Shown here piece by piece: positions 3,536 through 18,308 of a stretch of DNA of 21,744 bases. The stretch is from a virus. Made by a program: the position numbers and the translations under genes. Within the stretch, counting starts at the first letter, position 1. Every line of letters starts with the position of its first letter. The notes beneath the pieces are model-generated. The model had not been told where the DNA came from. It saw only the letters and a list, made by a program, of their open reading frames with translations, and made no database searches. The stretch is from positions 1-21,744 of the IMG/VR virus record IMGVR_UViG_3300034019_001720; one strand, 5' to 3'.

Positions 3536-6500
3536 CACCCGAGCAGGAAGCGGAATTCGAGCGTCGCCGGGAAGCACTGCGGGCGCGGCTCGAGCAAGAG
3601 GCCGCAGCTCAGCCAGCTCCTGCTGCGGCCCCCGCTCCCGCCCTTGAGCCGGTGTCACAGAATTCTTATCTAAAGAAGAAAACAGATTCAGGAACTGTGA
3701 CACCCGCGCCTGCTCCGCGCGTCGACTTCGCCGCGTTCCCGGCGGCTACGGTCCGTGACGTGCCGAAGACGCGTGTGCAGCGCGCCCTCGAAGGGTACCG
3801 CGCGGTGGTGCCGGCAACTGTGACGGAGTCGCGGACCCAGGTCGAGCGCGGCACCCCGCGTAGTTACATCGAGCCCATCGAGCCCGAGTTCGCGCAGAGC
3901 GCCCGCGAGGCCGAAGAGCGTCTTGACGTACCCGCCGAGCGCGAGGCCCAGCTTGAGCGGCGCCCTCTGAGCGGGATGCTTGGGTCTCCGTACCAGCCCG
4001 AGAGCGACGTGCTGCGGCGTCAAGCAGCTTCTCGAGGCGCGGTCAGCACTACCGCGGAGCGCGACAAAGAGTACTTCGAGCAGCGCGAAGGGCTCGTCCC
4101 GTTCCTGCGCCCGACTCGAATTGAGACGCTGCCTGCTGAAGTCCCCGAAGCGGGCACTGAGCGCGTAGTCCGCGAGACGGTAGTGCCGTTTGCTGAGCCC
4201 GTCGCGCGCGCGCCGACCGAAAGAGAGGAGCTGGTCGAGGCTTTCGCGAGGCAGCCGACGCTCACCCGGGACGCAGCTCGGCGAGTGGCGGAAGGCGCGG
4301 AAGTCGGCAAAGAGGAGCGACAGGTCGGTGTTCTTGAGGGCGCGCGTATCGAGACCCCGGCGGAAGCAGTGTTTCGCTCTTTTTCGGCGCTGGTGCCGCA
4401 GACACTGGCCGCGGGCTACCGCGCGCTGCAGCCGGAGGCAGCGAGAGAGGTGAGCGCGAAGATAGAGGATCTAGCTAGATCGGCCGCGCCGAAGTCCCTT
4501 GTGCAGATACACGATATTTTCTATTCCCCTCTCCCCTTCTCGGCGGGGCAAGCGGATAACACTTTTGCTGAGGGGATGCGGCGTGGGTCTACCCTCCTCG
4601 ACATGATGAGTGAAGACCCTGAGATCGTCGCCGATCTCAAACGCAAGTACATCGCCCAAGTAGACGCTATCCGTACCGCCCTATCCGTGAACCCGTCTGC
4701 GCTCGCAGCCTTCGAATCGGCAATACCAGATCCGGACACCTACGCGCAAAATCACGCCAAAGCGATTGGTTTCCTGTACGACCTGGCGCTACCGATGACT
4801 CCCGCGGGTCTCCCCGGCGTGAGTACGGGCCTCCGGGCGCTTGGCAGTGCCGTGCAGGGCGCAGCGGGGGCTTCGGCTGCGGCGAAAGTGGAAAAAGAGA
4901 TTGTGCGTCGCGTCTGGGACGCCGCTGTGCGTGAGACCCCGATGCCCAAGGGCCTCACAGCAGACACCCTCCGAGCGGCCTACGACGCTGTCCCCGTCGA
5001 GCTTCGCGTCGACCCGAACTACCGCCTGGCCGAGGGCGCAGAGGCCAAAATCAAGGCCGAAGCGGCTCGCGCACGGCCTGGCAACGACCTCGTTCGCGTC
5101 AGCCCGAAGTACGCAGTGCCTCGCGCGCAAGTGGCGCGAGCGAAGGCCGCGGCAGACCAGGCGACTTCCGCCTACGTCGAGCGGGCGCGGTCTTTGGGCG
5201 CGGAGATCACTCCTCAGGCTGTCGGGCGCGTGAGGGACCAGGCGGTCTACGACGCGGTCAGCACGCAGGTTCGAGCGCTAGACGAGCTCGGTCAGTACCA
5301 GGTCGTGCTCGACGGCATCGAGAACGAGCGCGCCTGGTCGCAGGTTGTGAGCACCCTGGCGGCTCTGCGCGACCCGGTGGCCGCGACCAAGCGGGCCTCG
5401 ATCGAGGCGGCGGAGCGCGAAGTCAGCCGCAAGGGGCAACAGGCACTCCGGGTGCTTGGGCGCGAGCTGCGCGAGATCGTGCGCACTTCGGAGACGCCCA
5501 TCACTGCGTCGCAGGCGCTTGGGCGTGTGGCAGAGCGCGAGCTGGGCGAGATGATCGCGAAGGCGGACGGCGCCGAGGTTTTCGGCAAGGTCGTGGAAGA
5601 GACCTTCGGAGGGGGTCCCGTAGGCGCGCAATGGCGAGAGACCGCGCTTGACGCGTACCGCAAGCTGTACCCGGGTGAGCCTCTGTGGCGCGTCATCGAG
5701 CCCGACCGCACCGAAAAACTGTACCAGTACATGCGCGGGACGGTGCAGGGTCTGCCCCTTCTGCGGCCCAAGTACGTGCAGAATTCGCTCAAGATCGTCA
5801 TCGAGGAGGGCGTGCGTAAGCGCGTCGCAAAAGAAGCCAAGGCCGCCTACGAGGCCCGCTACGGCACGTTCGACGTGAGCAGAGGCCCGCTGCTCGCCGC
5901 TGAGAACCGCGCTTTCCTCGCCGAGGAGGCGAGGTTCGTCGAAAACGGCGGTGAAGAGCTGTTCCGTTTGAGCGAGTCCCTGCCCACGCGCGCGGGTGGT
6001 GAACCCCTGCCGGCGGGCGAGGCGCTCTCCACTCTGGCTGCCGGGGTGCGCTCGGCCCGGACGACGCTGGGCTACGGCCCCTGGTCGATCCCGGTGGTCG
6101 CGGCCGGCGAGAGCGTGATGGCGCCCATCCGCGCGCTGGCCTACACGGGCATCCTCGGTACCCCGTATCGGCCGGCGCTGATCAAGACCCCGATGGGCAC
6201 GTTCACAGCGCGCGAAGTGGATGAGCTGATCGGCTCTCTTGGCGGGGTCGGCATGACCCGGGCGGACGTCGAGCGCACCGGGCGCCAGGCACACGACCTT
6301 TTCAGAGCCGTCGAGCAAGAGGTCGCACGGGCGCAGGGCAGAACCGCGGAGACCGCCGCACGCAAGGCGTTTGCCGGGACCCCAGCGGCCCTCTCCATCG
6401 CGGCCACCGTCGAGGAAGAGGCCCGGCGGGCTGTGTTCATCAAGGCCTTGCAGCGCGGTCAGACGCCCGAAGCGGCGATTGCGACGGCGCGGCGCTCTCA

Positions 6501-7422: not shown

Positions 7423-7468
7423 GTAGGCACTGCGGGCTGTCCACGCCCGAGGAGGACGCAGTGCCTAC
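7423..7468 (+). promoter_or_regulatory. 12-bp inverted repeat covering a start codon, ribosome site in the loop
   Basis: GTAGGCACTGCG (7423-7434) and CGCAGTGCCTAC (7457-7468) are perfect complements separated by 22 bases. The right arm contains the GTG start at 7461, and the loop contains the GAGGAGG ribosome site (about 7449-7455). A shorter alternative stem, CGGGC/GCCCG (7433-7437 with 7445-7449), could compete. Read-through mRNA from the upstream gene would fold and should hide the start codon. It could alternatively be a DNA operator just downstream of the promoter-like element. Confidence 0.75.
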
Positions 7469-7898
7469 GCGCATCACGCACTACCTGCACGATTCCGTCG
7501 TCGCGCCCGATTCCCCGCCTGCCCTGGGGACCTCTTTTTCGACTGCGGACGTACACGCGCATGACCTTGGCGCGGACCTCCCAGCGTTCCAGTCCGCGCG
7601 AAACTACTACGGCATCGTGACCGGGATCCACGTCCGCGTCACCGACATCGTGACCGCGGCCTCGATCACGATCCGCCTCTGCGCGGACCCAGAGGGCGAC
7701 TTCACGCTCGTGCCCGACGTCACCGCTGACCTGGCCACCGGGCTGACGACAACCGACTCGGGCTGTATCGCCGTCTCGGTAGGGATCCCGATCTACCAGA
7801 TTCTGGGCGGACCGGGCAACAGTACGGTGTATCTCTTTGCTCACGTCGACGCCGGTTCTGCGAATTTTGCGCAGAGCTGTGTGACATGGACAGAGTAG
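7461..7898 (+). CDS. Small putative virion protein, 145 aa
   Basis: GTG 7461 follows GAGGAGG and is the only well-placed start. The product is a soluble protein with many short Val/Ile/Thr/Ala stretches alternating with polar residues, consistent with a beta-sandwich tail, fibre-tip or decoration protein. No domain is recognised. It is the first gene after the ejection block and, unlike its neighbours, has a real intergenic leader (7414-7460) with a promoter-like element and a start-codon hairpin. It is therefore probably expressed at a different time or level. The next ORF, a homing endonuclease, overlaps its end. Confidence 0.7.
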   Translation: MPTRITHYLHDSVVAPDSPPALGTSFSTADVHAHDLGADLPAFQSARNYYGIVTGIHVRVTDIVTAASITIRLCADPEGDFTLVPDVTADLATGLTTTDSGCIAVSVGIPIYQILGGPGNSTVYLFAHVDAGSANFAQSCVTWTE

Positions 7899-8527
7899 TC
7901 ATGGGAAGCTCCGCTACTTGTGGGGTCTATGAAGTCTGGTGCGGGCCGCACTTCTACCAAGGCTCCAGCAAGAACATCCCCGCCCGCCTTCGGTCGCACA
8001 GAAAGTCACTTGCGGCCGGGAGGCACGGCAACACCAAGTTCCAGCGTGCTTTCGACAAGTACGGGTGGACTGACTCATGCGTCCTGGTTGAATGCTCGGA
8101 AGAATCCCGGTTCGGATACGAGCAGGACTACATTGACGCCAACTGGGGCGATCCGAACTTCTTGAACATCACCCCCTCTTCGCGCGGCCCGGTGTGGACC
8201 GATGAGATGAGGGCGAAGGTGAGCGCAACGCTCAAGGGGCGCCCCGCCAACAACAAGGGCAAGCCTGCTACGGAACAGGCCCGTGCTAATATGTCGGAAG
8301 CCCACAAGCTCCGGTATGCCGAAGGGCGCGGGCATTCTGAGGAGGCCATTGAGAAGATGAGAGCAGCCGCTATTGGTAACACGCGCACCAAGGGGGCCAA
8401 ACTCACCTCGGAGCACATCGAGAAGATAGCTTCTACCCACAGGGGACGCAAACGCAGCCCCGAAGCGAGGGCGAACATGGCTGAAGCACAGCGCAAACGG
8501 TGGGCGCGCGCCCGCGAGCAGGAGTGA
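7886..8527 (+). CDS. GIY-YIG homing endonuclease with NUMOD3-type repeats, 213 aa
   Basis: The N-terminal GIY-YIG nuclease domain (about residues 12-95) shows GVY (13-15), YQG (24-26), the expected catalytic Arg (R34, in ARLRSHR) and the catalytic Glu in YEQDYID (E79). Residues about 105-205 carry repeated KGRP/NKGKP, SEAHK and RGRKRSPEARANM units, typical of NUMOD3 DNA-binding modules. Such enzymes cut an unoccupied allele and spread by recombination. ATG 7886 overlaps the upstream gene by 13 bases. ATG 7901 is an alternative that keeps the whole domain. Neither has a convincing ribosome site. It is a freestanding element between two structural genes. Confidence 0.9.
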   Translation: MDRVVMGSSATCGVYEVWCGPHFYQGSSKNIPARLRSHRKSLAAGRHGNTKFQRAFDKYGWTDSCVLVECSEESRFGYEQDYIDANWGDPNFLNITPSSRGPVWTDEMRAKVSATLKGRPANNKGKPATEQARANMSEAHKLRYAEGRGHSEEAIEKMRAAAIGNTRTKGAKLTSEHIEKIASTHRGRKRSPEARANMAEAQRKRWARAREQE

Positions 8528-11036: not shown

Positions 11037-11425
11037 GCTGCCTCCCCGGCGCTCTCGGTGGCGTGGCGGCGACCGAGGCGCGGCCAGCCGACGTACTGGT
11101 ACTCGGCGAGCAGGCCGCGCTCGATGCGAGCGGCGCGCAGCACAGGGGCGCCGTCGGCGTCGAGGCCGAAGATGGCCACGATGTAGTCCCCGCGCGAGCC
11201 GCGGCGGCTGCGGTACGGGTAGCACCGCACCGACCAGGTGCCCTCGGGGTAGTGCACCTCGCGGCCGCCGGAGTGGCGTGCATCAGCCTCCGCGACGGCC
11301 GAAGCGAGCGTGGCGGTCACGATCTCCAGGTCGAGCACCCGGGCGCGAGTGCGCGGGGGCAGCTCGGCGCGAGCGACGAAGGCGTGAGTGGCGATGGTGT
11401 AGACGAGATCGATGGGAGTGGGCAC
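11033..11425 (-). CDS. Protein of unknown function, first gene of the leftward operon, 130 aa
   Basis: I place the start at GTG 11425-11423 because GAGGA lies four bases upstream and a TAGACG-N17-TAGTAT element lies a further ~40 bases up. The open frame runs to 11752 but its extra part crosses the control region and the divergent gene. The protein has a helical first half (LVYTIATHAFVARAEL, LDLEIVTATLASAVAEAD) and a strand-rich second half (TWSVRCYPYR, DYIVAIFGLD). No motif is recognised. It heads four tightly coupled leftward genes, probably an early or accessory transcription unit. Confidence 0.6.
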   Translation of the reverse strand: MPTPIDLVYTIATHAFVARAELPPRTRARVLDLEIVTATLASAVAEADARHSGGREVHYPEGTWSVRCYPYRSRRGSRGDYIVAIFGLDADGAPVLRAARIERGLLAEYQYVGWPRLGRRHATESAGEAA

Positions 11426-11545: not shown

Positions 11546-11557
11546 GCTACCGGTAGC
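11546..11557. promoter_or_regulatory. Operator-like palindrome GCTACCGGTAGC
   Basis: A perfect 12-bp dyad. The core CTACCGGTAG recurs in both copies of the promoter block at 15147 and 15648, where it lies next to a -10 box. The recurrence argues for a shared phage regulator acting here and there. Confidence 0.6.
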
Positions 11558-11578: not shown

Positions 11579-11629
11579 TGGCACTTCTCTGTTCTTCTTT
11601 TTATAGAGAGAGAGAACAGAGTAGTGCCA
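11579..11629. repeat. AT-rich stem-loop element A (inverted relative to element B)
   Basis: Arms of 17 bp (11579-11595 and 11613-11629) pair with one T-T mismatch and enclose a 17-base loop with TTTTTATAGAGAG. The minus strand of this element closely resembles the plus strand of element B (15087-15139): both read CTCTGTTCT, a pyrimidine run, TATAAAA, then AGAACAGAG. It lies between the leftward operon and the replication genes. The stem is not followed by a T-run, so a classical terminator is unlikely. Confidence 0.75.
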
Positions 11630-11664
11630 CTGCTCGTATACCGCGGTATACTGCTGGCAGGAGG
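11624..11664 (+). promoter_or_regulatory. Rightward promoter candidate with 16-bp operator and ribosome site
   Basis: The perfect palindrome GTATACCGCGGTATAC (11636-11651) overlaps a good -10 box TATACT (11647-11652). A weak -35 box GTGCCA (11624-11629) sits 17 bp upstream, in the right arm of stem-loop A. AGGAGG (11659-11664) sets the ATG at 11670. A dimeric repressor on the palindrome would block this promoter. The downstream gene product is RHH-like, so autoregulation is a natural guess. Confidence 0.55.
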
Positions 11665-11669
11665 CCACT

Positions 11670-12044
11670 ATGGCAGATGAGCTCACCTCGACCCGCATCT
11701 CTCGCACCGACGCCGAACTACTGACGGCAGTAGCCGCGCTCGAGGGCGGCACACACGCCGAAGTGCTGGGGCGCCTGATCGCACGGGCGGTCGGGCCAGA
11801 TCACCCTGTTCGCTCGCCGTCGCGCCGCCTGGCCGAGCAGCTCCTCGCGTGCCGCCCAGTGGTGACTGCTGTTGGCAAGGACGCCCAAGTGCTGGCCATC
11901 TACGCCCTCGCCGACGGCTGCGTCGTAGCGCGGCACATGGGCCACGTGCGGCTGGCGGCAGCGCTGCTCGACCTGCTCGTGGCGGAGATCGCGACGCTCC
12001 GGTCTGGGCGTGACGGCGTCGGCGCGTTAGGCCTCGCAGACTGA
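11670..12044 (+). CDS. Putative ribbon-helix-helix DNA-binding regulator, 124 aa
   Basis: ATG 11670 is fixed by AGGAGG five bases upstream. Residues 5-42 fit a ribbon-helix-helix layout: a strand (LTSTRIS), a helix (RTDAELLTAVAALEGG) and a second helix with a turn (THAEVLGRLIARAV). Residues 60-110 form two further helices that may serve dimerisation or ligand binding. RHH proteins act as dimers on palindromic operators, and a 16-bp palindrome sits in this gene's own promoter. The gene precedes the replication protein, consistent with control of early or replication genes. The RHH call is from pattern only. Confidence 0.55.
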   Translation: MADELTSTRISRTDAELLTAVAALEGGTHAEVLGRLIARAVGPDHPVRSPSRRLAEQLLACRPVVTAVGKDAQVLAIYALADGCVVARHMGHVRLAAALLDLLVAEIATLRSGRDGVGALGLAD

Positions 12045-12061
12045 GACCCCCCAACAGAGAA

Positions 12062-12086
12062 CCCCTCGGGGGACCAACCCGAGGGG
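12062..12086 (+). terminator. GC-rich stem-loop between regulator and replication gene
   Basis: CCCCTCGGG (12062-12070) pairs perfectly with CCCGAGGGG (12078-12086) across a 7-base loop. No T-run follows, so it may be a partial terminator, attenuator or mRNA stabiliser that adjusts the amount of replication protein relative to the regulator. It lies 18 bases before the AGGAGG site of the next gene. Confidence 0.45.
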
Positions 12087-12115
12087 CTCACACCCAACCG
12101 CACCAGGAGGCCGGG

Positions 12116-15088
12116 ATGCAGCCCGACCGCAAAAAGAGTAACAACACCAAGCCGTGGACGCAAGAGGACAGAGCAGCGGAAAAGCGTGCTCAGCTGTGGA
12201 TGAGCCGCACCTTTGGCGCCGCCCCAGCAGGGACGCGCACGGTAGCGCGCGTGCGCCCCGGAGTGCACCAGCCTCAGGCCTTTTCCGCGCCTAGCTTTTT
12301 CGTGAAGCACTCGCAAGAAGAGGTGATGCGCCGCAAAGCGAAGAACATCCCTCTCGCGGGGCTCGCCGACGTCAGGCAGTGCCTGCTGGTTTCGCTCGAC
12401 TGTGACATCGCCGACTACGAGGGCTGCCCTGAAGAGTGGGGCGCAACTAGGGAAGAGCGTAAGCACTTCCTCTACGCTCAGACCGTGGACTACGTCTGCG
12501 ACTGGATGCGCGAAAACGGGTACATCGAAAAAATGCTTTTCGGCTGGGCGCAACTAGGGCTGCCCGCGCCGAACACACTGGTCTACTCCGGGCACGGTGT
12601 GCAGGGGTGGTGGCGGATGCCCGCCGACATGGGGGGCACCGATGGCGCCTGGTCGCACGCTCGTCTGCATCCTGCGTGGGGCGCGTGGGTCCGAGAGGCA
12701 CGCGCGCACCCGGAGCATGGGTGGACGATCGACGCCAACGCCAAAGACCTCGGCACGCGCAACGTCCCCGTGCCGGGTGAGCTCCATCGCTCCGACGCAA
12801 GTGGCACGAAATACGTCACCGTCATCCGCGAGAACCCTGAATCTAGCATCCGCGACCACCTCCTGGCTGTGGCTACGGCCTACGTAGCGCCTACCCCCGC
12901 GCCTAAGCCCGCGCCTAAGCGTGCGGGGGATAAAGAGGAAAAACCGTCGAACGCGCCCCACAAAACAGGTCGAGCCAAGCAGGTCATCTGGCACTCCGAC
13001 TGGGGTGAGTTCCCCGCTGCGGGGACGCGCGATGTCTGCCCTAAGTGCCCACCGGACTCTACGCGCGCGGCTCAAACTTACGAGCGCAAAAACGGAAAAA
13101 GAGTTTTCCACTGCCACCGCTGCAACATCGCCTACCACCAATCCGACGGGAAAAACCGCGACTGGTCCTTCCGCTGGCAGCCCGACGCGGTCGAAATCAA
13201 ACTCGACGCTAACGGCTACGCGATCTGGCCCGAGCTGGCCGAGGTGAGCGTGCTTCGCGTCGGCACGGGCGCGGGCAAAACGAGAATGATGGCCCAGCTG
13301 GCCGAGGCGTGGCCCGGTATCGTGATCTCAATCAACACGACCGTGGCGCTGTCTGAGCAGGCTGCGGCTAAGTACAACATCGCCCACGCGTCCGCCGGGT
13401 CGAAAATAACCGCGGCGCACGGGAGCGTCGCCACCTCTTTTGCGCGGCTGCCGGAGACGCTCAAAGCGCTGACTCCAGAGATGCTGCGCGACGCGCTGAT
13501 CCTGTTCGATGAGTGTGAGTCAGCGTTGGGGCAGCTCGCCTCGATGCTGGCGAAGCGCCCCGAGTGCCTCACTGTGTTGACCGGCGCCGTCGCGCAAGGT
13601 GCGCGGGTACTGCTGGCCGACGCGCACGCCGGCGAACAGACCCGTCTGCTGCTGCGGCAGGCGGCCGAGGAGCGCGCGCAACTCGAGCTCCCTCCGCGCC
13701 AAGCGGTCTGGTATGAGGGGCCCACCACACGCCATCAACTGCGCTACGTCCCGGCTCTGACGCTCCCGAGCGGGAAGGTAATCTCGAGCCACACCCGCGG
13801 GTACGCGCTCATGCTCGAGAGGCTCAAAGCTGGGAAAAGGATCGCTGCCTACGGGTTTTCGAAGAAAACGTTGCACGCCATGGCCGCCGATGCTCGGGAC
13901 ATCGACAAAAAAGCGATTTGCGTGACTAAGGCGGAGCACGAGGATGAGCGCGTAGGTCTCGATCCCGAGTATCTGCAGTCCGCAGACGTGCTCTACTACA
14001 ACAACGCTATGGGCTCTGGCGTCTCACTCGAAAAGGGGCACTACGACGAAGTCTGGCTGTTTACGGAGAACCATTCTCAGCAGGACTACCGAATGCTGGA
14101 GCAAGCCAGTCATCGTGACCGAGCGGCGGCCAAGCGCCCCATCTACGTCTGCGGAGTTCTTCGCGAAAAGCCTGACAGCGTAGAAACCGAGAGCTCACCG
14201 GAGTGGCAGATGGAGGCCGCTGTCGAGCGGTTCCAGCGGGAGGAGGTCGTCGCGCAAAGCGTCGGGGTAACCCTGTTTGTCGACCACCACTTCTCTTTGG
14301 AATCACGCAGAATGTCTTGGCAACAGGCCACAGCCCACGCCGAAGCGGTCCGCACGGGGCGAGGATGGGCGCTACAAGCACTCTTTGACCGGCACGACGT
14401 GCACGTGATGAGCGAGGAAGAGGTCGGTGATCTCGACCTCGGGGCCACGAAATCGCTGCGCCGCTGGAAGAACGCACAAAAGAGGGAAAAAGTAGTGGCA
14501 GTACTCGCCGCCGAGCCCAGCGCCCCTGAGCGCGCCAAAGAGATTGCGGACGGAGATCTGCCAGAGAGCGCTCAAGAGCTGGCAGAATACAGGGCGCATC
14601 GCGTCATCTCTACTGTTGGCGATGCGGTACAGGTATCTGCCACAGCCGCGACGATGTTCGTTACCGCGGAGGTCGACGGGAAACTCGGCGCGGCCGTGAC
14701 GACGGTGGCACTTGCGCGTTGCCTCGGCGAGGGCGGCGAGGTCGCACAGAGGGCGCTGAAGTGGTACCGGGCGCACGTGCATCAGACGCTCGGCGGGCAA
14801 AGCAAGAGCACTATTGTCGCCGCGAGGCGATACCTTAAGTCCGCGCAAGACCTATCGGCGCTGATCTCTGGCATCCTCGCGCTCACCGAGAATGGGCGTG
14901 ACTACCATATCCTAGGCGATCCGCGCGGCGTAAAAGCTCTTCTGCGCAAGGGGCTCATCCCAGTGCAGTGCAAGAAGACAGCCAGCTCGCGCGAGTACTA
15001 CGTCAGGCGCGAAGACGTGCTGCTGGCACTTCAGGCGGCGGATAGGCGGGTCGAGTACATCCGCACTATGGACCTGACCGGGCTGTGA
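12116..15088 (+). CDS. Replication protein: primase-like domain, zinc ribbon and SF2-type origin-binding helicase, 990 aa
   Basis: ATG 12116 follows AGGAGG (12105-12110). The N-terminal part resembles archaeo-eukaryotic primase-like domains: acidic motif SLDCDIAD (93-100), SGHGVQGWW (158-166, compare SGxGxHxYW), and D206 with LGTRNVPVPGE (212-222). A Pro/Ala/Lys linker follows (258-270), then a zinc ribbon C308-x2-C311...C333-x2-C336. The helicase part has Walker A GTGAGKT (383-389), Walker B DECE (465-468) and a C-terminal segment around 625-675 (YNNAMGSGVSLEK...MLEQASHRDR) like the late motifs of herpes-type origin-binding helicases. It probably melts and primes phage DNA. No DNA polymerase gene is seen nearby. 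Confidence 0.75.
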   Translation: MQPDRKKSNNTKPWTQEDRAAEKRAQLWMSRTFGAAPAGTRTVARVRPGVHQPQAFSAPSFFVKHSQEEVMRRKAKNIPLAGLADVRQCLLVSLDCDIADYEGCPEEWGATREERKHFLYAQTVDYVCDWMRENGYIEKMLFGWAQLGLPAPNTLVYSGHGVQGWWRMPADMGGTDGAWSHARLHPAWGAWVREARAHPEHGWTIDANAKDLGTRNVPVPGELHRSDASGTKYVTVIRENPESSIRDHLLAVATAYVAPTPAPKPAPKRAGDKEEKPSNAPHKTGRAKQVIWHSDWGEFPAAGTRDVCPKCPPDSTRAAQTYERKNGKRVFHCHRCNIAYHQSDGKNRDWSFRWQPDAVEIKLDANGYAIWPELAEVSVLRVGTGAGKTRMMAQLAEAWPGIVISINTTVALSEQAAAKYNIAHASAGSKITAAHGSVATSFARLPETLKALTPEMLRDALILFDECESALGQLASMLAKRPECLTVLTGAVAQGARVLLADAHAGEQTRLLLRQAAEERAQLELPPRQAVWYEGPTTRHQLRYVPALTLPSGKVISSHTRGYALMLERLKAGKRIAAYGFSKKTLHAMAADARDIDKKAICVTKAEHEDERVGLDPEYLQSADVLYYNNAMGSGVSLEKGHYDEVWLFTENHSQQDYRMLEQASHRDRAAAKRPIYVCGVLREKPDSVETESSPEWQMEAAVERFQREEVVAQSVGVTLFVDHHFSLESRRMSWQQATAHAEAVRTGRGWALQALFDRHDVHVMSEEEVGDLDLGATKSLRRWKNAQKREKVVAVLAAEPSAPERAKEIADGDLPESAQELAEYRAHRVISTVGDAVQVSATAATMFVTAEVDGKLGAAVTTVALARCLGEGGEVAQRALKWYRAHVHQTLGGQSKSTIVAARRYLKSAQDLSALISGILALTENGRDYHILGDPRGVKALLRKGLIPVQCKKTASSREYYVRREDVLLALQAADRRVEYIRTMDLTGL

Positions 15089-15139
15089 TGGCAGTTCTCT
15101 GTTCTGTCTCTATAAAAGAAAGAACAGAGTTCTGCCATC
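15087..15139. repeat. AT-rich stem-loop element B
   Basis: Arms of 19 bp (15087-15105 and 15121-15139) pair except for two central T-T mismatches. The 15-base loop contains TCTATAAAAGA. The left arm begins on the last two bases of the replication gene's stop codon. On the plus strand the element also contains ATGGCA (15088-15093), 17 bp, TATAAA (15111-15116), a fair sigma70-like promoter pointing right. It is the partner of element A, in opposite orientation. The two bracket the regulator and replication genes. Confidence 0.75.
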
Positions 15140-15146
15140 TGCCCTA

Positions 15147-15215
15147 GTGGGTGGCGCAGCTACCGGTAGTGTGCTAGGCTACCGGTATGCGCTGCCCGCA
15201 CTGCCTCGCCCCGAC
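15147..15215 (+). promoter_or_regulatory. Promoter-operator block, copy 1
   Basis: About 69 bp nearly identical to 15648-15716 (about seven mismatches), offset by 501 bp. It contains CTACCGGTAG (15160-15169) and the variant CTACCGGTAT (15179-15188), centres 19 bp apart, roughly two helical turns. A TANNNT box, TAGGCT (15175-15180), lies between them, six bases before an ATG at 15187. This looks like an operator-flanked promoter giving a leaderless message. The -35 region is not canonical. Confidence 0.6.
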
Positions 15216-15237
15216 TACTGGAGGTTCGCATGAGTGA
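15187..15237 (+). CDS. Leaderless mini-ORF, 16 codons (relic or leader peptide)
   Basis: ATG 15187 lies six bases after TAGGCT and opens MRCPHCLAPTTGGSHE. The first seven residues equal the start of the NrdR-like gene at 15688, so this is a copied gene beginning that diverges after them. Its stop overlaps the start of the next gene by eight bases (ATG at 15230, TGA at 15235-15237), and it contains that gene's GGAGG site. It may be an unselected relic of the duplication or a coupled leader peptide. Confidence 0.4.
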   Translation: MRCPHCLAPTTGGSHE

Positions 15238-15646
15238 AATCTATTACTGCTACTCGATCAACCCCACCGACTTCTGGTTCGGGTCTTTCTGCAAGAAACA
15301 ACTTTTGCAGCATGCGCTAAACAGCATGTCTGACTTAGATGGCTGTATTGATGCAGATTTCGGCGAAGACGCACAAACAACTGTAACACATTTAGTCACG
15401 GAGATGACTCGTCTTGACGAGGTCATGGACGCCTTTGCAAAACTCTTAATCGACAGCGATTGGCGGGAGGAAGCCAGATATTGCTTCTTACCTAGCGAAT
15501 ATGCTCTGCAGATGGCCGTGATGAGAAAGGTAGATAACAACGGGACCACCTATGTGGTGAGCCCGGTCCCGCTGGACTACTTACTGGGCCAGCACAACGA
15601 CTATGCGTACATGGACGAGAACGGGCTGTGGCATAAAGAGCCTTGA
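15230..15646 (+). CDS. AT-richer cargo protein of unknown function, 138 aa
   Basis: ATG 15230 has GGAGG at 15220-15224. The gene is clearly poorer in G+C than its neighbours, with codons such as TTA, ATT, AAA and ACA that are otherwise rare here, suggesting recent acquisition. The product starts MSEIYYCYSINPTDFWFGSFCKK, has an acidic helical middle (DADFGEDAQTTVTHLVTEMTRLDEVMDAFAKLLIDSDW) and no known motif, membrane span or signal. It is flanked by two copies of the 69-bp promoter block, so it looks like a moron inserted with its own copy of the downstream gene's promoter. Confidence 0.7.
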   Translation: MSEIYYCYSINPTDFWFGSFCKKQLLQHALNSMSDLDGCIDADFGEDAQTTVTHLVTEMTRLDEVMDAFAKLLIDSDWREEARYCFLPSEYALQMAVMRKVDNNGTTYVVSPVPLDYLLGQHNDYAYMDENGLWHKEP

Positions 15647-15647
15647 C

Positions 15648-15716
15648 GAGGGTAGCGCCGCTACCGGTAGCGTGCTAGACTACCGGTATGCGCTGCCCGC
15701 ACTGCCTCACCTCGAC
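15648..15716 (+). promoter_or_regulatory. Promoter-operator block, copy 2
   Basis: Second copy of the 69-bp block, with CTACCGGTAG (15661-15670), TAGACT (15676-15681) and CTACCGGTAT (15680-15689). The -10-like TAGACT ends six bases before ATG 15688, and no Shine-Dalgarno sequence precedes that ATG, which supports a leaderless start. The second operator overlaps the -10 box and the ATG, so bound protein should block transcription. Confidence 0.6.
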
Positions 15717-15897: not shown

Positions 15898-16429
15898 CAC
15901 CCTCGTCGCTGTCTGGGACGCGTCGGCCGCCACCGACGCCCATGGCCGCGTCGTGCCTGTCGAGGTCGCAGTCGTGCTCGTGCGCCTCGGTGACGAGCCG
16001 GACGTCGTGGCCGCCGACCGCTGGCCCGTGCGCGTGCCCTACTACGACTACACCGACGAGATTGCCCGTCTGCACGCGCATCACGGCGTGAACCGCTACA
16101 ACGTCCGCCAGTGCCTCGACCTCGCTCAGCTCCGCGAAGAGCTGCTCCGCTCGCCCTACGGTCCGGGGCAGGCCTCACGCCACACGAGCTACGGGAAGCG
16201 GCGCGTGTTCGGCCTCCTGCGCGAGGCTCTGCGGCTGCCGCTGGCACCCGAAGGCGAGTGCATCCAGTCCGTCGCAGCCCACGTGGCCCATCATCGCGAC
16301 CGGCACTACTCTCTGGCGGACGCGGCGCTATGGGCTCGCATCCCGTGTGACGCCCGCACCCTGGCTCACGCCGGTGGCCGGGTCGGGGTCGCGGCGCAGC
16401 TGCTCCTCCACCTCGAGACCCGGGAGTGA
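15878..16429 (+). CDS. Degenerate DnaQ-like (DEDDh) exonuclease-fold protein, 183 aa
   Basis: ATG 15878 lies inside the end of the previous gene; earlier in-frame starts only shadow it, and there is no clear ribosome site, so coupling is likely. The outline follows 3'-5' exonucleases: an opening strand with an acidic residue (VAVWDAS, D14), IARLHAHHGV (compare the IHGI segment), ECIQSVAAHVAHHRDRHYSLADAALWARIP, then RTLAHAGGRVGVAAQLLLHL. Key residues are missing: D-x-E is D14-x-S16, and the HxAxxD motif keeps H164 but has V169 for Asp. It may be a non-catalytic relative. The family call is by pattern only. Confidence 0.45.
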   Translation: MPPKKRDTLVAVWDASAATDAHGRVVPVEVAVVLVRLGDEPDVVAADRWPVRVPYYDYTDEIARLHAHHGVNRYNVRQCLDLAQLREELLRSPYGPGQASRHTSYGKRRVFGLLREALRLPLAPEGECIQSVAAHVAHHRDRHYSLADAALWARIPCDARTLAHAGGRVGVAAQLLLHLETRE

Positions 16430-16431
16430 GT

Positions 16432-16653
16432 ATGGATCCATACACTCGCGGGGAGACAGCGCAGGGCGTCATCGAGCTGATCCCCGACGCGCTGCACGTC
16501 CTGCGGCGCGTGCTCGACGGCGGACCGATGGGAGCGGAGGCCTGCCGCACGGCGCGGTGGGTTGTCGAAAAAGCGTTAGACGTGCTATCCGACGAGGGCG
16601 AGAGTGCCGATGTGCTCGAGCTTCGCGCGGTTCTAGAGGCGGTGAGAAAATGA
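16432..16653 (+). CDS. Small helical protein of unknown function, 73 aa
   Basis: ATG 16432 is chosen because GGGAG (16422-16426) sits five bases upstream. A GTG at 16426 overlaps the previous stop but also overlaps the ribosome site. The protein is mostly helix (TAQGVIELIPDALHVLRRVLDG, ACRTARWVVEKALDVLSDE, DVLELRAVLEAVRK), soluble and acidic. No motif is recognised. Its stop overlaps the methyltransferase ATG (ATGA), so it may be an accessory or dosage partner for that gene. Confidence 0.6.
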   Translation: MDPYTRGETAQGVIELIPDALHVLRRVLDGGPMGAEACRTARWVVEKALDVLSDEGESADVLELRAVLEAVRK

Positions 16654-18308
16654 ACAAACCGTACAAGCTGTGGACTGGTGATTGCCGCGAGGTCGTCGGG
16701 TACGGCTACGCGGAAAATACGTTTGACTCGATCGTCTGCGATCCACCTTACGGTCTTGAGTTCATGGACAAAGCCTGGGACAAAGGCGTTCCAGGGGTCG
16801 AGTTCTGGACGCACGCCCTGCGCGCGGCAAAGCCCGGTGCCTACCTGCTTGCGTTCGGAGGCACAAGAACTTTTCACCGGTTGGCGTGCGCCATCGAGGA
16901 CGCGGGCTGGGAGATCCGCGATTGCATCATGTGGGTCTACGGCACCGGATTTAGCAAAGGATTCAATTTGAGGCGCGCCGGGTGTTGCACTTGTCAAGGA
17001 AAGGCGATACCATACAGCCAGCCTGCAAAGGAGGGCCAACATGGAAAACCGGCAACCGAACACGACATGCGACTATTGCGGGAAAGCGATTTACAGGCGG
17101 CCAGGAGTGCTGGCGAAGAACACAACGAAAGCATGTTCACATCGATGCAGCAACTTCCTGCGGGGCTACAGTCAATTGCACACGCCGGACGCGATTGCGA
17201 AGCGAGCGGCGAAAATGACGGGCATGCAGAATCCAGCATGGAAAGGCGGCAGGTATATCGAGCCGGAGAAGGGGTACGTGATGATTCGGAAGCCGGATCA
17301 TCCGAGGGCGAGGCACAACGGCTATGTGCTGGAGCACATATTGATTGCGGAGCAAATGCTGGAACGACCGTTGACGGATACAGAGGAGGTACACCATATC
17401 AATCACAACAGGGCCGACAACAGGCCGGAGAACCTGAAGGTGTTCAGCAGTCATTTGGAACACTGGATGCAGGAGCATTACACGGACGTGGCGCGTGCCC
17501 GAGATGTGGCAAGCTCAAAGCGGAGTATGAAGGCTGGGGCACCGCGCTCAAACCCGCCTGGGAACCCATCATCGTCGCACAAAAACCTATGAAGACAACT
17601 GTCGCGCAGAACGTGTTGAAGCACGGCACGGGCGCGATCAACATCGAAGGGTGCAGGGTGGGGACGGGTGCTGACAAGGGTGTGTGGCCCATCACGCAAC
17701 GAAGACATAATGACGTTGCTTGGACTGTGCAGCCCGTCGAGACAGACAACAATAGTGGACGCTGGCCCGCGAACCTCATCCACGATGGCTCTGAAGAGGT
17801 GGTGGGGCTGTTCCCGCAGAGCAAGGCTGGCAAAGAAACAAAGGAGCGAGGTAAAGGCGGCATCTGGTCGCCCAGCTCCGGCACACCAGCGGGGCCGCAG
17901 TACGGCGACACCGGCTCCGCAGCGCGCTTCTTTTACTGCGCAAAGGCGTCACGGAAGGATCGCGAAGAGGGGTGCGAGGGGCTGGAGTTGGTAACGCATC
18001 AGAGCGGCATGGGTGGAGCGATGCCGGTTGACGATGACGGGAACGCGAGGGACCGATTAAAGGCACAGAGCCGCAATCATCATCCCACCGTGAAGCCTAC
18101 CGACCTGATGAGGTACCTCGTCCGGTTGGTCACCGCGCCCGGCGGCCTCGTGCTCGACCCCTTCATGGGCTCTGGGTCAACGGGTAAAGCAGCGATGCTC
18201 GAAGGCATGCGCTTTGTCGGCGTCGACCTGAATGCTGAGTACGTCGAGATCGCCAAATCCCGCATCGAGCACGCTCTCACAGCACGCACTGAGCTGGAGG
18301 GGGAGTGA
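16650..18308 (+). CDS. DNA methyltransferase, beta class (N4-cytosine or N6-adenine), interrupted by an out-of-frame HNH gene, 552 aa
   Basis: ATG 16650 overlaps the previous stop (ATGA); the open frame reaches back to 16347 but only shadows other genes. Catalytic motif IV is DPPY (31-34). The C-terminus carries HPTVKPTDLMRYLVRLV and the SAM-binding motif I DPFMGSGSTG (about 503-512). Motif order IV then I defines the beta class. The middle (WGTALKPAWEPI, NINIEGCRVG-like) is typical of phage members. Residues about 131-283 are low-complexity Gln/Glu/Ser/Gly sequence arising from DNA that encodes an HNH nuclease in the +1 frame. The insert separates CCTC (112-115) from CPRC (283-286), probably one split zinc site. 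It likely protects phage DNA from host restriction. Confidence 0.85.
   Translation: MNKPYKLWTGDCREVVGYGYAENTFDSIVCDPPYGLEFMDKAWDKGVPGVEFWTHALRAAKPGAYLLAFGGTRTFHRLACAIEDAGWEIRDCIMWVYGTGFSKGFNLRRAGCCTCQGKAIPYSQPAKEGQHGKPATEHDMRLLRESDLQAARSAGEEHNESMFTSMQQLPAGLQSIAHAGRDCEASGENDGHAESSMERRQVYRAGEGVRDDSEAGSSEGEAQRLCAGAHIDCGANAGTTVDGYRGGTPYQSQQGRQQAGEPEGVQQSFGTLDAGALHGRGACPRCGKLKAEYEGWGTALKPAWEPIIVAQKPMKTTVAQNVLKHGTGAINIEGCRVGTGADKGVWPITQRRHNDVAWTVQPVETDNNSGRWPANLIHDGSEEVVGLFPQSKAGKETKERGKGGIWSPSSGTPAGPQYGDTGSAARFFYCAKASRKDREEGCEGLELVTHQSGMGGAMPVDDDGNARDRLKAQSRNHHPTVKPTDLMRYLVRLVTAPGGLVLDPFMGSGSTGKAAMLEGMRFVGVDLNAEYVEIAKSRIEHALTARTELEGE
17027..17035 (+). promoter_or_regulatory. Strong ribosome site for the nested HNH gene
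   Basis: AAAGGAGGG ends five bases before ATG 17041, inside the methyltransferase frame. Such a strong, well-spaced site argues that the nested HNH frame is really translated rather than a chance open frame. Confidence 0.7.
17041..17592 (+). CDS. HNH homing endonuclease nested in the methyltransferase gene, 183 aa
   Basis: An N-terminal zinc knuckle (C10-x2-C13...C32-x3-C36) precedes a classic HNH domain. Residues 63-146 read NPAWKGGRY...GYV...RKPDHPRA...GYVLEHILIAEQMLERPL, then EEVHHINHNRADNRPENLKVF, with H118/H119, N127, N131, H138 and H141 as the metal and catalytic core. These enzymes nick or cut specific sites to spread their own gene. The ORF has its own strong ribosome site and lies one frame off from the methyltransferase. 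Its last ~35 residues overlap conserved methyltransferase codons and are probably extra sequence rather than ancestral HNH. Confidence 0.88.
   Translation: MENRQPNTTCDYCGKAIYRRPGVLAKNTTKACSHRCSNFLRGYSQLHTPDAIAKRAAKMTGMQNPAWKGGRYIEPEKGYVMIRKPDHPRARHNGYVLEHILIAEQMLERPLTDTEEVHHINHNRADNRPENLKVFSSHLEHWMQEHYTDVARARDVASSKRSMKAGAPRSNPPGNPSSSHKNL

Follow-up and report, generated by a model that had tools for sequence, protein, structure and literature searches.

Where might DNA replication begin in a tailed phage with one recognisable replication gene, and which protein would act there? This question is raised by IMG/VR virus record IMGVR_UViG_3300034019_001720, a stretch of 21,744 bases that was analysed at its full length (the window). 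It represents a GC-rich tailed phage encoding a terminase, a portal-like gene, structural genes and a lysis-type peptidase. The sole recognisable replication gene within the window is the frame at 12116-15088 (plus strand), which encodes a 990-amino-acid (990-aa) protein; the searches that were run on the window revealed no recognisable DNA polymerase. This gene follows a 124-aa gene (11670-12044, plus strand), and the two-gene operon is bracketed by two palindromes, element A (11579-11629) and element B (15087-15139). We consider A and B to be possible cis-acting replication sites, bound and melted by the 990-aa protein, and give this reading a probability of about 0.45.

Two inverted palindromes around a replication operon

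Element A (minus strand) has 17-base-pair (bp) arms with one mismatch and a 17-nucleotide (nt) core that reads CTCTCTCTATAAAAAGA on the minus strand. Element B (plus strand) has 19-bp arms with two mismatches and the 15-nt core GTCTCTATAAAAGAA. With mismatched positions in square brackets, A is laid out as TGGCACT[T]CTCTGTTCT, core, AGAACAGAG[T]AGTGCCA, and B as GATGGCAG[TT]CTCTGTTCT, core, AGAACAGAG[TT]CTGCCATC. A 17-mer box, TGGCA-N3-CTCTGTTCT, is common to all four arms: AGAACAGAG-AAG-TGCCA at 11579-11595 (minus strand) and AGAACAGAG-TAG-TGCCA at 11613-11629 (plus strand) in A; AGAACAGAG-AAC-TGCCA at 15089-15105 (minus strand) and AGAACAGAG-TTC-TGCCA at 15121-15137 (plus strand) in B. The middle three positions vary among the arms, the T-T mismatches falling among those after position 6. 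Position 6 itself is C in both A arms and G in both B arms (C:G versus G:C), so the pairing symmetry has survived one double change. The elements are inverted copies, the minus strand of A matching the plus strand of B at 79-81% (inverted pairs I2 and I5), and both cores contain the directional 11-nt sequence TCTCTATAAAA, which faces outward in each element. AT content is 58-59% in the elements versus about 35% for the window. Element A occupies part of the intergenic region, approximately 160 bp long, that separates the 124-aa gene from a divergent minus-strand gene; the first bases of element B belong to the stop codon that ends the 990-aa gene. The positions, the near-perfect arms of 17-19 bp, the inverted relationship and the AT-richness were all as an earlier sequence-only reading of this DNA had described them.

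When short-range stems were ranked across the full window, with the loop limit set at 20 nt and then at 22 and 60, B came first and A second. A palindrome scoring 14 was reached by chance in one of six Markov-shuffled windows; a single palindrome alone is therefore unremarkable. Two palindromes with identical arms are beyond an explanation by chance. A search of the window for the 17-mer pattern with up to three mismatches returned four matches, exactly the four arms, where 0.3 were expected, and four matches were reached in none of 100 shuffles. Beyond A and B, the window and the contigs that extend the genome by approximately 6 kb contained at most weak three-mismatch matches, and the four-fold box is confined to the module. 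RNA folds of both strands of each element had z-scores of -6.6 to -8.1 and DNA folds of the two elements had z-scores of -6.9 and -9.0; folds as good as A and B occurred in 0 of 200 shuffles.

The 990-aa protein matched CyRepA1 (NF042913) over residues 376-712 (E=6e-16, 58.5 bits). It is a distant relative and not a member of that family, because the score falls below the curated cut-off of 200 bits. Matches were also found to the phrog families 'replication' (9e-8) and 'replication origin binding' (1.5e-4); for the helicase part, the families matched are of the CyRepA1 and origin-binding kinds and not superfamily 3 (SF3). The prim-pol phrog 'DNA polymerase/primase' was matched weakly at residues 151-244 (E=0.006), with no Pfam or PDB match. 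By eye, SGxG...W and KDLxxRxxPxPGxLxR stretches were seen that we take to be typical of archaeo-eukaryotic primases, together with what are presumably a CPKC...CHRC pair and a Walker motif, GTGAGKT. A Cys/His zinc-finger-like region lies at about residues 308-337, and at the C-terminus the stretch RGVKALLRKGLIPV...YYVRREDVLLAL resembles, we assume, an excisionase-type helix-turn-helix. An AlphaFold model made without an alignment (predicted local distance difference test score, pLDDT, 36) was not used. The 124-aa protein had no family match. By eye, its strand-helix-helix N-terminus resembles a ribbon-helix-helix repressor, and two helices in a low-confidence model agree with that predicted fold.

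Candidate replication sites and competing explanations

Replication sites are favoured because the module combines a repressor-like and initiator operon with a hairpin 3' of the initiator, and because sites of the same sequence, with inverted boxes around an AT-rich core, stand on both sides of it. Which protein binds, and that replication starts at these sites, we infer from layout and precedent. Each site would act as an inverted pair of the 17-bp boxes around its short AT-rich core. The 990-aa protein would attach to the boxes, probably by means of the DNA-binding region at its C-terminus, and its helicase would then melt the core or stabilise an extruded hairpin. The N-terminal primase-like domain would start DNA synthesis and a host polymerase would continue it. 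At least one of the two would be an origin, B being the likelier. Element A would provide either a second origin or a site at which the same protein exerts control in cis, in a layout comparable to that of ori and crr around the alpha gene of P4, and the 990-aa protein at A could also regulate the adjacent divergent promoters. Among the functions that the sequence-only reading had offered, origins and binding sites for the 990-aa protein are the best supported, by anatomy and precedent; cassette ends are unsupported.

The minimal replicon of the Sulfolobus islandicus plasmid pRN1 consists of a small repressor gene and a prim-pol/helicase gene (the orf56/orf904 operon) followed by an AT-rich stem-loop whose integrity is required for replication (PMC4234260). 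A similar stem-loop lies 3' of the replication gene in Bordetella phages of the BIP-1 type (PMC4234260), which are tailed phages with a primase-helicase type replication protein. Element B is likewise a large stem-loop immediately 3' of a replication gene. The same stem-loop scan found a single hairpin in pRN1 (5084-5183, with 21-bp arms and a 58-nt loop, starting 54 bp after the gene) and a single hairpin in BPP-1 (L119 3608-3711). Unlike pRN1, with its one stem-loop and longer loop, the present phage has two inverted copies with shorter loops; the Bordetella stem-loop differs in sequence and size, and no second inverted copy of it was found by the scan. The record annotation of P4 shows repeats of one type at two sites: crr, which lies immediately 3' of alpha, and ori, which lies beyond the gene's other end. 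A primase-helicase gene is flanked there by a pair of separate sites that share repeats. These are, however, arrays of short type 1 repeats and not paired hairpins, and alpha combines a Toprim primase with an SF3 helicase. That CTCTGTTC resembles the type 1 repeats of P4 was treated as probably coincidental.

A further precedent comes from herpes simplex virus (HSV). In HSV OriS, inverted boxes surround an AT-rich spacer and are bound by UL9/OBP, an origin-binding helicase of superfamily 2 (SF2) that destabilises the spacer; the HSV genome has three redundant origins (PMC12543377). The homology seen is in the helicase core; the box sequence is unrelated, and HSV has a third box and a separate primase and polymerase. 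It is also conceivable, though we think it unlikely, that A and B are paired hairpin origins, inverted relative to each other, one at either end of the phage's own repressor/primase-helicase operon, each OriS-like, with the initiator firing from both ends of its gene and controlling the divergent promoters at the same sites. In the CyRepA1 plasmid replicon pSYSA, ssr7036 and slr7037, a small gene followed by one for a large CyRepA1-family protein, lie within a replicating fragment of approximately 3.6 kb (PMC9978351); its copy control, unlike anything proposed here, is by antisense RNA.

A search for the 990-aa protein by tblastn against phages and plasmids returned just a weak match, to the origin-binding protein of Enterobacter phage KKP_3711. 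Upstream of that gene, approximately 1.3 kb (L028:605-1879) is free of annotated genes and contains a hairpin with 12-bp arms (698-740); this stretch is a candidate origin. The protein search of viral contigs recovered three further contigs that carry the gene, all of the same species, and the search of genome contigs recovered none. Terminase, terminase-alignment and capsid protein searches found the same species or phages 22-30% identical that lacked a homologue of the module. The hairpin DNA pattern was found in viral and genome contigs of this species only, apart from unrelated chance matches, and the operator pattern GCTACCGGTAG-N-CTACCGGTA was found elsewhere without the module proteins. 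Against sister contigs L002 and L003 the window shows no substitution over 5.6 kb, the identical stretch starting at 11217 and reaching at least 16834. Left of 11216 the window diverges strongly from both (97 differences, including indels, in about 700 bases). This sharp boundary at 11216-11217, inside the minus-strand gene and away from A, points to the breakpoint of a recent exchange. As the elements lie in a substitution-free block common to all carriers, which are one species, their conservation is uninformative.

Several observations weigh against replication sites at A and B. The known carriers of the elements are confined to one species, in the identical block just described. Cumulative GC skew, suggested earlier as a check, showed no clear switch at A or B and was uninformative. 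The scan of pSYSA, a well-studied CyRepA1 replicon, revealed neither a comparable stem-loop nor paired hairpins. The helicases of pRN1, BIP-1 and P4 are SF3 enzymes whereas this one is SF2/CyRepA1-like; the resemblance is therefore an analogy of layout and not homology, and, given another class of helicase and a weak match to primases, the module is not a proven pRN1-type member. Finally, the sequence GTGGGTG(G/C)CGC-N0-3-AGCTACCGGTAG occurs on the outward side of both A and B, and this flank similarity looks like promoter or operator sequence.

That last observation leads to a doubtful alternative, in which the elements are outward promoters or operators: TATAAA in each core would serve as a -10 directed outward from the replication operon, the operator halves over -35 and +1 would be supplied by the arms, and one regulator would switch the leftward and rightward gene blocks. 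Both cores do face outward. The outward flanks, which include GCTACCGGTAGC, had a similarity score of 52, above 99% of shuffles (inward flanks, 40), and inspection by eye revealed no other good -10 in the interval from A to the leftward gene. When random pairs of real segments of the window are compared instead, however, the flank score stands only at about the top 1-5%. The promoter-like spacings were quoted correctly in the sequence-only reading, which had included outward promoters among its options, but they are not preserved: a spacing of 16-18 nt exists in B (17) and not in A (19), and the sigma-70 consensus scan reported neither element. Moreover, B has a separate -10-like TAGGCT beside an ATG, duplicated without a hairpin at 15650, and the long palindromic arms would go unexplained unless they are operators. 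A similarly questionable proposal is that the hairpins are U-less terminators, insulators or mRNA 3' ends, B ending the replication transcript and A blocking read-through into its promoter. The start of B within the stop codon, the very stable RNA folds of both elements and the hairpins without T-runs within approximately 20 nt downstream of two other genes (7423-7468, 12062-12086) are in line with this. Those hairpins are GC-rich, though, unlike the AT-rich A and B. No sense transcript ends at A, because the genes on its two sides diverge, and a terminator needs neither identical arm sequences nor a directional core. As had been noted from the letters alone, the T-run of an intrinsic terminator follows A or B on neither strand, and the terminator scan did not report their full stems. 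Promoter and terminator roles can coexist with an origin.

It is very improbable that A and B are loxP-like recombination sites that invert the module, or the ends of a mobile cassette. Inverted orientation, palindromic arms and an asymmetric core would suit such sites, as would a module that lies within a block identical between otherwise diverged contigs. Conservative recombination is normally intolerant of differing cores, and those of A and B differ in length (17 versus 15 nt) and in sequence. The elements have one orientation in all four contigs, and none of the scanned window proteins was recognisable as a recombinase. Inversion sites were rejected because the cores are unequal and the orientation is single. 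The sequence-only reading's cassette ends fared no better: the boundary of identity lies about 360 bp outside A, which led to their rejection, while identity with the sister contigs continues approximately 1.7 kb past B, and no target-site duplication was visible.

Flanking sequences and other features of the genome

To the right of A, a consensus-like operon promoter, GTGCCA-N17-TATACT, spans 11624-11652. The perfect palindrome GTATACCGCGGTATAC (11637-11652) overlaps its -10-like TATACT and is a plausible autoregulatory operator of the regulator/replication operon. Between the two operon genes, the GC-rich hairpin CCCCTCGGG/CCCGAGGGG (12062-12086, plus strand) could be one of the phage's ordinary terminators or attenuators. 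A third hairpin (7423-7468), with perfect 12-bp arms GTAGGCACTGCG, directly follows the gene for a 1293-aa protein, without a T-run. The palindrome GCTACCGGTAGC occupies 11546-11557 on the outward side of A, and the palindrome CTACCGGTAG was enriched (7 matches, 1.3 expected) and belongs to the promoter-like units at 15149-15189 and 15650-15690. Comparison of the window with L002 supports minus-strand coding of the leftward genes: their substitutions fall mainly at third codon positions (10/16 and 15/27).

The outward flank of B (15149-15189, plus strand) has the promoter-like order GTGGGTGGCGC-AGCTACCGGTAG-TGTGC-TAGGCT-ACCGGT-ATG and is repeated at 15650-15690. The -10-like TAGGCT (15178-15190) or TAGACT (15679-15691) ends six bases before the ATG, which suggests leaderless transcripts. 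Such transcripts are frequent in actinobacteria, and the signal is a possible hint at an actinobacterial host. Within 15149-15716, a 67-bp direct repeat (91%) surrounds a low-GC (49%) gene for a 138-aa protein, which looks like a foreign insertion that came with a duplication of the 69-aa zinc-ribbon gene's promoter and start.

Sister contigs extend the genome rightward by approximately 6 kb and supply a capsid gene, with no match to the window start. A GIY-YIG/NUMOD3 homing endonuclease gene at 7886-8527 is cleanly absent in L003 (window position 7899 joins 8531), which indicates recent insertion or loss. An HNH endonuclease frame (17041-17592) lies in a different frame within an N6/N4 DNA methylase gene (16347-18308); this region is shorter and diverged in L003, and L007 lacks the whole stretch 16653-18305. 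Rfam and transfer RNA scans returned no matches.

Implications for phage replication modules

A single stem-loop beside a replication gene is an already known design; its doubling and inversion around the phage's own initiator operon is unusual. Origins are rarely located in uncultured phages, and a paired palindromic element with a single-protein module provides a concrete origin candidate. If A and B do act as replication sites, the idea of stem-loop origins would be extended from pRN1 and the Bordetella phages to a CyRepA1/origin-binding-type helicase with a herpesvirus-like architecture. The self-contained 3.6 kb module, comprising regulator, initiator and two sites, would be assayable as a mini-replicon.

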